Below, one piece after another: positions 1-4,271 of a stretch of 33,121 nt of DNA. Under the pieces are notes generated by a model. That model had not been told where the DNA came from. It was given only the letters and a program-made list of their open reading frames with translations, and did not search any database. Position 1 is the first letter of the stretch, and every line of letters begins with the position of its first letter. This DNA comes from Gammaproteobacteria bacterium (GTDB lineage: Bacteria; Pseudomonadota; Gammaproteobacteria; Steroidobacterales; Steroidobacteraceae): NCBI GenBank assembly GCA_020851435.1, contig JADZCS010000124.1:1-33121 (forward strand), read 5' to 3'. Both the position numbers and the translations under genes were made by a program.

Positions 1-2571
1 CCCGGCCGCACCTTCCGCGACGACCTGTTCGAGCAGTACAAGGCGCACCGTCCGCCGATGCCGGACGACCTGCGCGCACAGGTCGGGCCGCTGCTCGAGG
101 CCGTCGAGGCCATGGGCCTGCCGTTGCTGCGCATCGCCGGCGTCGAGGCCGACGACGTGATCGGCACGCTCGCCCGGCGCGGCGCGCAGTCCGGGCTGGA
201 GGTGCTGATCTCGACCGGCGACAAGGACATGGCGCAGCTCGTCTCGGACCGCATCACGCTGGTCAACACCATGACCAACACGCGGCTCGACCGCTTGGGC
301 GTCAAGGCCAAGTTCGACGTCTTTCCCGAGCAGATCGTCGACTACCTCGCGCTGGTGGGCGACAGCTCCGACAATATCCCCGGCGTTCCCAAGGTCGGGC
401 CGAAGACCGCGGCCAAGTGGCTCAACCAGTACGGCAGCGCCGACGAACTCGTCGCGCACGCGGCGGAGGTCGAGGGCAAGGTCGGCGAGAGCCTGCGCGA
501 GAACCTCGAGACGCTCGCGCTGTCGCGCCGGCTGGCGACCATCGCCTGCGATCTCGAGCTGCCGCTGGGCCCGCAGGACCTCGAGCAGCGCGAACCGGAC
601 GTCGAGCGGCTGCGCGCGCTGTACCAGCGCTATGAAATGAGCTCGCTGCTGCGCCAGCTGTCCGGCGGCACCGAGGCGCCCACGGCTCGCGCTGCGACTC
701 CGCCCGTGCAGACTGCTGCATCCGATACACCGCCCGACCCCGCCCTTCCCGCCGCGCCGGACCGCCGCGAGTACGACACCGTGCTGAGTCAGGCGGCGCT
801 GGATGACTGGCTGAAGCGCCTTGCATCCGCGCCGCTGGTGACCTTCGACACCGAGACCACGAGCCTCGACTACATGCAGGCGGAGATCGTCGGCGTGAGC
901 TTCGCCATCGAACCGGGACACGCCGCGTACGTTCCGCTCGCCCATCGCTACGCCGGCGCGCCCGAGCAGCTCGATCGCAGCGCCGTGCTCGAGCAACTGC
1001 GGCCCCTGCTCGAGGACGCCGCGCTGCCGAAGCTCGGTCACCACCTCAAGTACGACGCGCACGTGCTGCTGAACCACGGCATCCGGCTCGCCGGCATGCG
1101 CTACGACTCCATGCTGGAGTCCTACGTGCTGAATTCCACCGCGACGCGGCACGACATGGATTCCTGCGCGCAGAAGTACCTCGGCATCAGCACCATCCAT
1201 TACGAGGACGTCGCCGGCAAGGGCGCGAAGCAGATCAGCTTCGACCAGGTGCCCATCGAAACCGCGGCCGAATACTCGGCCGAGGACGCCGACGTCACCC
1301 TGCGCCTGCACCAGGCGCTGTGGCCGCGCATCGAGGCCGAGCCCGAGCTGAAGAAGCTGTACGAGGAGGTCGAGCAGCCGCTCGTGCCCGTGCTGGTCGC
1401 GATGGAACACCACGGCGTGCGGGTCGATCGCGAGGTCCTGCGGCGCCAGAGCAGCGAGCTCGCCTCGCGCATGCTGGAACTCGAGGCCGAGGCCCACCGC
1501 CTCGCGGGCCAGCCGTTCAACGTCAACTCGCCCAAGCAGCTGCAGGAGATCCTGTACGGCAAGCTCGGGCTGCCCGTCACGCAGAAGACCTCGACGGGCC
1601 AGCCGTCGACGGCCGAGGACGTGCTCGAAGAACTGTCCGCGGCCTACCCGCTGCCGCGCGTGATCCTCGACTACCGCGGCCTCGCCAAGCTGCGCAACAC
1701 CTACACCGAGCGCCTGCCCGAGCAGATCGACGCGCGCACCGGCCGCGTGCACACCTCGTATCACCAGGCGATCGCCGTGACCGGTCGCCTGTCGTCCACC
1801 GACCCGAACCTGCAGAACATCCCGATCCGCACGGCCGAGGGCCGGCGCATCCGCCAGGCCTTCATCGCAGGTCCCAGCCAGGTGCTGCTCGCGGCCGACT
1901 ACTCGCAGATCGAGCTGCGGATCATGGCCCACCTGTCGCGCGACGCGAGCCTGCTCGCCGCCTTCGCCGGCGATCGCGACGTTCACCAGGCGACGGCGGC
2001 CGAGGTGTTCGGCGTGCCGCTGGCGAACGTGAGCGGCGAGCAGCGCCGCGCGGCCAAGGCCATCAACTTCGGGCTGATCTACGGCATGTCGGCCTTCGGC
2101 CTGGCCAAGCAGCTGGGCATCGACCGCGGCTCGGCGCAGCGCTACGTCGACACCTACTTCGAGCGTTACCCGGGCGTGCGCCGCTACATGGACGAGACGC
2201 GCGCGCAGGCGCGCGAGCGCGGCTACGTGGAAACGGTATTCGGCCGGCGCCTGTACCTTCCCGACATCCGCTCCCGCAACAAGCAGCTGCAGCAGTACGC
2301 GGAACGCAGCGCGATCAACGCGCCGATGCAGGGCACCGCGGCCGACATCATCAAGCGCGCGATGATCACCGTGCACGCATGGCTCGTCGAATCGCGGCTG
2401 CCGGCGGTGCTGGTCATGCAGGTGCACGACGAACTCGTGCTCGAAGTGGACGTGGGTGCCGTCGACGAGGTTCGGGCCGGGGTCGTCGAGCGCATGTCCG
2501 GGGCTGCGGAGCTGGCCGTTCCGCTCAGGGTCGACGTGGGAACCGGGGCCAACTGGGACGAGGCCCACTGA
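1..2571 (+). CDS. polA: DNA polymerase I, 5' end outside the window
   Basis: Frame stays open upstream of the listed ATG at 58 (PGRTFRDDLFEQYKAHRPPMPDDLRAQV). 5'-3' exonuclease, 3'-5' exonuclease (TFDTETTSLDYM) and Pol A motifs (LLAADYSQIELRIMAHLS, VMQVHDELVLEV) are present. Confidence 0.97.
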   Translation, partial: PGRTFRDDLFEQYKAHRPPMPDDLRAQVGPLLEAVEAMGLPLLRIAGVEADDVIGTLARRGAQSGLEVLISTGDKDMAQLVSDRITLVNTMTNTRLDRLGVKAKFDVFPEQIVDYLALVGDSSDNIPGVPKVGPKTAAKWLNQYGSADELVAHAAEVEGKVGESLRENLETLALSRRLATIACDLELPLGPQDLEQREPDVERLRALYQRYEMSSLLRQLSGGTEAPTARAATPPVQTAASDTPPDPALPAAPDRREYDTVLSQAALDDWLKRLASAPLVTFDTETTSLDYMQAEIVGVSFAIEPGHAAYVPLAHRYAGAPEQLDRSAVLEQLRPLLEDAALPKLGHHLKYDAHVLLNHGIRLAGMRYDSMLESYVLNSTATRHDMDSCAQKYLGISTIHYEDVAGKGAKQISFDQVPIETAAEYSAEDADVTLRLHQALWPRIEAEPELKKLYEEVEQPLVPVLVAMEHHGVRVDREVLRRQSSELASRMLELEAEAHRLAGQPFNVNSPKQLQEILYGKLGLPVTQKTSTGQPSTAEDVLEELSAAYPLPRVILDYRGLAKLRNTYTERLPEQIDARTGRVHTSYHQAIAVTGRLSSTDPNLQNIPIRTAEGRRIRQAFIAGPSQVLLAADYSQIELRIMAHLSRDASLLAAFAGDRDVHQATAAEVFGVPLANVSGEQRRAAKAINFGLIYGMSAFGLAKQLGIDRGSAQRYVDTYFERYPGVRRYMDETRAQARERGYVETVFGRRLYLPDIRSRNKQLQQYAERSAINAPMQGTAADIIKRAMITVHAWLVESRLPAVLVMQVHDELVLEVDVGAVDEVRAGVVERMSGAAELAVPLRVDVGTGANWDEAH

Positions 2572-2604
2572 TGGTAACAATCGTGCCTGGCACGATTGTT
2601 ACCA
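2572..2604. repeat. Near-perfect palindrome, 16-bp arms around one T (TGGTAACAATCGTGCC-T-GGCACGATTGTTACCA)
   Basis: Arms 2572-2587 and 2589-2604 are exact reverse complements. Starts 1 nt after the polA stop; no T-tract follows. Confidence 0.9.
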
Positions 2605-2613
2605 GGAAATGCC

Positions 2614-2641
2614 GGAACTTTCCCGCAGGCCCCGTGTCTCA
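2614..2641 (+). promoter_or_regulatory. Candidate sigma-E/AlgU-type promoter for an intergenic sRNA
   Basis: GGAACTT (2614-2620), 16-nt spacer, TCTCA (2637-2641). Resembles GAACTT-N16/17-TCTGA with one -10 mismatch. Confidence 0.55.
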
Positions 2642-2647
2642 TTCAGT

Positions 2648-2762
2648 GAGTCCCGAAATGGACTGCCCGCGACCTCCCTGCGCGGGTCAACCCGGACAGC
2701 TTTCCCCCCAAAGGCCGGGTTCGTGACCCGGCGGCTCGCAGGAGCCGCCGGGTTCTTTTTTT
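2648..2762 (+). ncRNA. Candidate sRNA in the polA-engB intergenic region (Spot 42/ErsA-syntenic), C-rich loops
   Basis: Hairpin 1 CCCGCG-ACCTCCCTG-CGCGGG (2666-2686). Hairpin 2 AACCCGG-acag-CTTT-CCCCCC-AAAG-g-CCGGGTT (2689-2721). Terminator 2726-2762. 5' end inferred from the promoter-like motif. Confidence 0.6.
2726..2762 (+). terminator. Rho-independent terminator
   Basis: ACCCGGCGGCTC-gcag-GAGCCGCCGGGT followed by TCTTTTTTT. Confidence 0.92.
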
Positions 2763-2771
2763 GTCGGGGCG

Positions 2772-3377
2772 TTACCCGCTGACCGGATCGGCCGGCCCCG
2801 CGAGCATCAGCTCCATGGCCTTGCGGGCCTCGTCCACACCCTCCTTGGATATCGACGAGAACAGCTGCACGGTCGCGCTGTCGCCCAGCGTCACGCGGGC
2901 CTCGCGCAGCACCTTGGTGGATTCGTTGCGCGAGAGCTTGTCGCACTTCGACAGCAGGATGTGCACGGGGCAGCCCCGCGAGGTGGCGTAATCGATCATC
3001 TGCAGGTCCGTGGGACCCAGCGACCGGCGGCTGTCGACGATGATCAGCAGGCCCACAAGTGATTGACGCTGCTTGAAATATGCGCCGATCAGGTGGCGCC
3101 AGTGCTGCTGCATGGCGGGCGGCACCTTGGCGAAGCCATAGCCCGGCAGGTCGACCAGCCGACGGCCCTCGTCGAGCTCGAAGAAGTTCACGAGTTGGGT
3201 GCGCCCCGGGGTCTTGCTGGTTCGCGCCAGGTCCTTGCGGCCGGTCATCACGTTGAGCGCGCTGGACTTGCCGGAATTGGACCGGCCGGCGAAAGCGACC
3301 TCCACGCCCAGGTCCTCATGGAAGTGGACGGGCTCCTGGGCGCTCTTCAGAAATCTTACGTTTGGGTAGGCTGCCAT
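2772..3377 (-). CDS. engB: Ribosome biogenesis GTP-binding protein YihA/YsxC/EngB
   Basis: MAAYPNVRFLKSAQEPVHFHEDLGVEVAFAGRSNSGKSSALNVMTGR; Walker A, DLPGYGFAKVP and LLSKCDKLS motifs. Start moved from the 3737 ORF start to ATG at 3377. Confidence 0.95.
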   Translation of the reverse strand: MAAYPNVRFLKSAQEPVHFHEDLGVEVAFAGRSNSGKSSALNVMTGRKDLARTSKTPGRTQLVNFFELDEGRRLVDLPGYGFAKVPPAMQQHWRHLIGAYFKQRQSLVGLLIIVDSRRSLGPTDLQMIDYATSRGCPVHILLSKCDKLSRNESTKVLREARVTLGDSATVQLFSSISKEGVDEARKAMELMLAGPADPVSG

Positions 3378-4200: not shown

Positions 4201-4233
4201 CGGGGGTGGCCATTGAACTTCCGGCCGCCCCCG
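4201..4233 (+). other. Intercistronic hairpin between cytochrome c and dsbA-like genes
   Basis: CGGGGGTGGCC (4201-4211) pairs with GGCCGCCCCCG (4223-4233), one G.U pair; no T-tract. Confidence 0.6.
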
Positions 4234-4271
4234 TCGCTCCAATCAACCGGACTTCGCCCCGGGAACCCCGC

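Follow-up and report, generated by a model that had tools for sequence, protein, structure and literature searches.

Among the closest described systems is ncS04, the anti-hemB RNA of Burkholderia cenocepacia, an expressed sRNA without an assigned function, which is 105 nt long, has a 3' end determined by RACE and is documented by Northern blots and co-purification with Hfq (PMC5688073, PMC4603805). Its neighbours on either side are BCAL0264 and BCAL0265, in the arrangement <- -> <- (PMC4603805), its transcription start has been mapped (J2315, replicon 1, 292949), and its level shows no significant change in seven conditions, osmotic stress and low pH included (PMC5688073). In sX13, C-rich loops mediate the repression of mRNAs that carry G-rich motifs close to the start, and Hfq is not required (PMC3771888). 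ErsA, which is AlgU-dependent (PMC5819304), pairs with its targets in an unstructured interior domain and not through C-rich loops (PMC5819304, PMC8575079).

The sequence-only reading of the DNA analysed here (a stretch of 33,121 nt, referred to hereafter as the window) had placed a sigma-E-driven sRNA with C-rich loops between polA and engB, and had taken it for a relative or positional analogue of sX13 and ErsA, possibly too diverged for existing covariance models.

A predicted sRNA gene between polA and engB

The locus comprises the following features (alignment A1 and model R2 are defined below).

58..2571, + strand: polA (DNA polymerase I), an ORF whose frame is open at the window start; upstream same-strand neighbour
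2573..2603, no strand: REP-like perfect palindrome between polA and the promoter, outside the sRNA
2614..2620, + strand: -35 box GGAACTT of a sigma-E-type promoter (sequence; conserved in relatives)
2637..2641, + strand: -10 box TCTCA of the same promoter (spacer N16; transcription start predicted near 2647-2648)
2648..2762, + strand: predicted sRNA of ~115 nt, anti-hemB/sX13-type (RF02837 and R2 matches, fold z)
2649..2664, + strand: 5' hairpin AGTCC-cgaaat-GGACT (helix 1 of A1, 96.2% paired, two-sided changes in 3 of 5 pairs)
2666..2686, + strand: hairpin 1, CCCGCG-ACCTCCCTG-CGCGGG, with loop ACCTCCCTG (helix 100% paired in A1)
2689..2721, + strand: hairpin 2, AACCCGG...CTTT-[CCCCCC]-AAAG-g-CCGGGTT, with loop CCCCCC at 2704-2709 (helix covaries)
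2726..2762, + strand: intrinsic terminator, hairpin plus T7 (sequence, fold, alignments)
2772..3377, - strand: engB (ysxC/yihA GTPase), an ORF; convergent downstream neighbour

The open reading frames agree with the earlier assignment of polA and engB as the flanking genes (polA on the + strand ending at 2571, engB on the - strand with its stop at 2772-2774), and 76 nt separate the polA stop from the predicted start region of the sRNA. The nearest named relatives of engB are from proteobacterial MAGs and Aromatoleum, which makes a betaproteobacterium the probable host. The palindrome at 2573-2603, which follows directly on the polA stop and reads GGTAACAATCGTGCC-t-GGCACGATTGTTACC, is present in about 37 copies in the genome, whose GC content is ~69% in the part examined.

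Folding of the RNA returns exactly these hairpins (MFE -58.9 kcal/mol, z = -3.7), and none of 200 shuffles was as stable. The promoter boxes, hairpins 1 and 2, the terminator and its T7 tract all lie where the sequence-only reading had put them; the three hairpins that it named are real, but it missed the 5'-terminal hairpin at 2649-2664. The loop of hairpin 1 carries a near-invariant CTCCCT (2674-2679), and the terminator is built on a 12-bp stem, ACCCGGCGGCTC-GCAG-GAGCCGCCGGGT (2726-2753), with the T7 tract at 2756-2762. Most relatives have a C-rich terminator loop, the window RNA GCAG. The RNA was also considered as the carrier of a conserved small ORF, which was rejected: the ATG at 2658 falls within the 5' hairpin, and relatives do not retain it.

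Homology to anti-hemB

In the sRNA region every Rfam family stays below its gathering score. The best sub-threshold match is to anti-hemB (RF02837), which aligns to 2664-2761 over all model positions 1-81 at 39.4 bits (E=1e-7), below the gathering threshold of 49.5 bits. This full-length alignment, together with recovery of the locus by R2 (64.4 bits, E=2.7e-12), a model trained without the window, shows homology to the family. The supposition that the RNA might be too diverged for existing covariance models is hence not sustained, RF02837 (unnamed in the earlier reading) being matched, if below its threshold. Further Rfam families match the stretch below threshold (6C, ncS037, DnaX, groES), too weakly (E 0.9-3) to be retained.

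The window RNA and anti-hemB have in common hairpin 1 with its CCUCCCUG loop, a second hairpin and a GC-rich terminator, and adjoin engB in many relatives. The window RNA differs in an additional 5' hairpin that the Rfam model does not cover, in its second loop (CCCCCC) and in lying downstream of polA, whereas in Burkholderia the neighbours on either side are opposite-strand genes. By these comparisons, the predicted RNA is an unannotated member of the anti-hemB (Burkholderia RNA 7) kind that has an extended 5' hairpin and a promoter of defined class. A DNA search of plasmid records for a named copy returned none.

Conservation of structure and synteny

RF02837 has matches in 77 of 100 relatives and, across the order, in 199 of 298 genomes; 16 and 23 of these, respectively, exceed the cut-off. 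All 32 distinct order-level loci examined adjoin polA and/or engB. The sequences upstream of the homologues are polA C-termini (62-79% identical), at distances of tens to hundreds of nt, and engB is also found downstream in relatives. Aromatoleum, a culturable relative, has the homologue beside engB (L039, L041; 59 bits). A1, an alignment of 32 transcripts that includes the window and leaves out the promoter, supports four helices, with 96.5% of cells paired and two-sided changes in 18 of 27 pairs; none of 500 shuffles was as good, and sliding controls gave 32-50%. The 5' hairpin takes the forms AGTGC/GCACT, AGCGC/GCGCT and AACGT/ACGTT in relatives, and the CTCCCT of loop 1 is invariant in all 32 sequences.

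A model built from A1 (R1, which therefore has the window in its training set) was run on 387 genomes from across the class, representing 289 genera, and matches 153 of them, in 119 genera; 26 of the 29 best-scoring R1 loci examined adjoin polA and/or engB. A second, class-wide alignment of 42 sequences (A2) comprises distant gammaproteobacterial loci and excludes the window. Here too the four helices are preserved, and 26 of the 27 pairs covary; the fitting of A2 to the model favours this result, but controls made by sliding drop to 33-47%. The loops persist over this distance, with CTCCCT in loop 1 of 39 of the 42, CCCC in loop 2 of 37 and CCCC in the terminator loop of 29. A few of the A2 loci had initially come up as matches to sX13 or ErsA below the threshold; R1 matches every one of these. 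R2, the model made from A2 and to which the window was thus unseen, gave no match at E<10 away from the polA/engB sRNA loci within the loci set (103 kb).

Both of the C-loop hairpins for which the sequence-only reading had proposed a covariation check do covary, in A1 and in A2. The comparative evidence indicates that the predicted sRNA gene between polA and engB is real and conserved.

Tandem arrays of two to four diverged sRNA copies, each with the structure, lie downstream of polA in L093, L107, L099 and L101; in L093 the best-scoring model differs by copy, being sX13, anti-hemB or ErsA.

A sigma-E-type promoter at a fixed distance

The motif GGAACTT-N15-17-TCTNA has one site in the 33-kb window, none in 100 shuffles of it and two in the whole 3.27-Mb genome. 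Scored against the consensus GGAACTT-N15-17-TCNNA (maximum 11), the promoter reaches at least 9.5 in 46 of 50 relatives, as compared with 0.2% of shuffles and 0 of 100 control regions, and in all 50 the -10 box stands 3-7 nt before the 5' hairpin. Because the alignment and the model were built without the promoter, its conservation constitutes a separate test. Class-wide, 24 of 29 loci score at least 8 (7.2% in shuffles), and a few loci are without the promoter.

The site upstream of the sRNA therefore has what is expected of an RpoE-regulon promoter: a consensus sequence, the right spacing and conservation in relatives. Two RpoE proteins of the genome score above the curated cut-off, and an RseA-like gene comes after each of the two rpoE genes; since the promoter is conserved and RpoE is encoded together with RseA-like genes, we strongly infer that the sRNA is under RpoE control. 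Covarying hairpins, a promoter at fixed distance, synteny and encoded RpoE/RseA together uphold, at the level of sequence, the original proposal of a sigma-E-driven sRNA with C-rich loops at polA-engB, and the C-loops, the stems and the -35/-10 boxes, on whose conservation that proposal had been staked, are all three conserved in relatives.

The other exact GGAACTT-N15-17-TCTNA site of the genome is L143 (G000 C107:13683-13711, - strand). The strict motif was also sought in the regions upstream of the two rpoE genes, for comparison with the sRNA promoter, and none was found there. Both rpoE-rseA modules (L145 and L146; G000 C7 and C43) lie near a succinate dehydrogenase iron-sulfur gene, and they may be paralogues or may reflect contamination, for which the listed value of the assembly is 6.4%. 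Within the window, a second sigma-E-like site, TGAACTTCCGGCCGCCCCCGTCGCTCCAA (4214-4242, + strand), immediately precedes a gene whose product is a DsbA-like exported protein bearing a CGHC motif.

Candidate targets and proposed mode of action

The loop sequence CUCCCU is complementary to AGGGAG and overlaps the 16S anti-Shine-Dalgarno sequence CCUCC. A duplex-energy ranking of targets over predicted genes was discarded, gene calling being too poor in this GC-rich MAG; targets were counted as exact ribosome-binding-site complements upstream of ATG-initiated ORFs in ~1.06 Mb (a third of the genome). Exported-type N-termini follow 8 of 14 CAGGGAG sites as against 73 of 340 other GGAG sites (Fisher p=0.005), and 11 of 24 AGGGAG sites (p=0.009), in an exploratory comparison that relies on heuristic gene and signal-peptide calls, tried several patterns and counts two paralogues among the eight genes. 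The exported candidates include two MtrC/MtrF-like outer-membrane cytochromes (the paralogues), a TonB-type beta-barrel, a glycine-zipper 17-kDa antigen-like protein, a SnoaL-like lipoprotein and a DUF4845 protein on an rpoE contig. MicA and RybB, RpoE sRNAs of E. coli, lower envelope-protein synthesis, and the enrichment fits an RpoE sRNA that would act likewise.

We consider it probable that the locus specifies a trans-acting sRNA of ~115 nt, with its own RpoE promoter and terminator, whose C-rich loops silence mRNAs for envelope and exported proteins; its most likely role is that of an RpoE-induced, trans-acting repressor of envelope-protein mRNAs. In the proposed chain of events, envelope stress would free RpoE from RseA, RpoE would transcribe the sRNA from its own promoter as far as its own terminator, and the loops, above all CUCCCU, would pair with purine-rich Shine-Dalgarno regions (AGGGAG). 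Pairing would block ribosome binding, mainly on mRNAs for envelope and exported proteins, and fewer such proteins would be made during stress. That the targets would be repressed rather than activated is extrapolated from sX13. Counted against this explanation are the third loop of the window RNA, which is not C-rich, unlike that of most relatives, and the flat level of ncS04 in the conditions tested (PMC5688073), which leaves RpoE induction putative for every anti-hemB member.

The behaviour of ncS04 would suit a different account, in which a genuine sRNA of this family is constitutive, or driven by another ECF sigma factor, and acts as a broad anti-Shine-Dalgarno RNA in housekeeping or general stress with no envelope focus. 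The known targets of sX13, which are signalling, motility and virulence genes and not mainly envelope genes (PMC3771888), would suit it too, as would the CAGGGAG sites that also occur before sdhB, a GST gene and a T6SS FHA gene. We hold this account to be unlikely, given a promoter close to the RpoE consensus with conserved spacing and distance, a genome that encodes RpoE with RseA, and the AlgU dependence of ErsA, the counterpart at the same locus (PMC5819304).

Much less probable again is that the element belongs to the polA 3' UTR, as a read-through product, terminator or stability element without a start of its own; it is co-directional with polA, has its predicted start region 76 nt beyond it and ends in a strong terminator, but relatives keep a dedicated promoter at constant spacing from it, their polA genes lie anywhere from tens to hundreds of nt away, and tandem copies each carry the structure. 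The Burkholderia homologue, moreover, has a mapped 5' start site and, from its <- -> <- orientation, therefore no co-directional gene upstream (PMC4603805). Chance occurrence of stable GC-rich hairpins and a functionless promoter-like string, for which the GC-rich genome (~69%) might speak, is refuted by covariation, synteny, the conserved promoter and a promoter match found only twice in the genome, and retains a negligible probability.

Relation to sX13, ErsA and Spot 42

Scanning the window with the Rfam models for Spot 42, ErsA and sX13, as the sequence-only reading had proposed, gave no match: sX13 (RF02232) has none at E<=5, ErsA/Pseudomon-1 (RF01719) has none in the window or elsewhere in the genome to which the window belongs, and Spot 42 (RF00021) has none in the window. 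Intermediate models do, however, connect the predicted sRNA to sX13. R2 finds three Rfam-confirmed sX13 loci (L128-L130) at 41.6-44.7 bits (E=5e-8 to 2e-7) and matches 34 of 41 Xanthomonadaceae genomes; in G326, G488 and G603 the match is the Rfam sX13 locus, and polA is upstream in 9 of the 10 Xanthomonadaceae R2 loci fetched. Weak R2 scores may be inflated by C-rich loops and GC-rich terminators, and synteny is independent support. Because R2 matches coincide with sX13 loci and have polA upstream, sX13 belongs with the family of the window sRNA, and anti-hemB and sX13 appear to share ancestry.

The likeness to sX13, linked via R1 and R2, extends to a size of ~115 nt, several stem-loops with apical C-rich loops, a GAAC-type upstream element and a site downstream of polA (in the window, polA stop 2571 and sRNA from ~2648). 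sX13 differs in the longer, different loop of its hairpin 1 and in its C-rich terminator loop (GCAG in the window); the window RNA displays two C-rich apical loops where three characterize sX13.

ErsA presents a different balance of evidence. R2 matches Rfam-confirmed ErsA weakly (30 bits, E=7.5e-5 in 103 kb) and only 4 of 40 Pseudomonadaceae genomes, with polA upstream in 1 of 5 matches examined. Locus (polA-engB) and promoter agree, the latter being a sigma-22 (AlgU) promoter of the same type (GAACTT...TCATA), and both RNAs have C-rich stretches; ErsA, however, pairs through its unstructured domain, whereas the window RNA displays its C-rich loops in hairpins. The earlier reading had treated pairing by C-rich loops as common to both described RNAs, which holds for sX13 (PMC3771888) but not for ErsA (PMC5819304, PMC8575079). 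Its description of the locus as a relative or positional analogue of sX13 and ErsA is likewise supported for sX13, by R1, R2 and the Xanthomonadaceae matches, while homology to ErsA is weakly supported. A different conserved hairpin RNA (GTCAGTATCTTTACGGCG...), found at L280 and L282 as a weak Pseudomonadaceae match away from polA, lies outside the family of the window sRNA.

E. coli Spot 42 (spf) does sit between polA and yihA/engB, on the polA strand, as the earlier reading had it. It is a cAMP-CRP-controlled RNA, differing from the window RNA in its promoter and in having no C-rich loop set, and it was rejected as a homologue, R1 and R2 both missing spf; by these comparisons Spot 42 is only a positional counterpart.

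A possible wider family

On balance we lean towards the view that one ancient envelope-stress sRNA family may occupy polA-engB across the Beta- and Gammaproteobacteria, with anti-hemB, sX13 and possibly ErsA as its branches, each copy fired by RpoE and equipped with a loop, CUCCCU, that hardly varies, partly mimics the 16S anti-Shine-Dalgarno and silences AGGGAG-type sites, many of them on exported proteins. RF02837, RF02232 and perhaps RF01719, which Rfam lists apart and without a clan, should in that case be grouped. Its most interesting part is the uniting of anti-hemB with sX13, a grouping that we did not find in the literature searched. For anti-hemB/ncS04 the comparison predicts an RpoE-type promoter, and hence a likely inducing signal, and supplies a nearly invariant seed. 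The sX13 loci L128 and L130 also match, below the cut-off, the alphaproteobacterial Atu_C7 (33.6 bits) and ar14 (32.8 bits), which hints at a still wider group.
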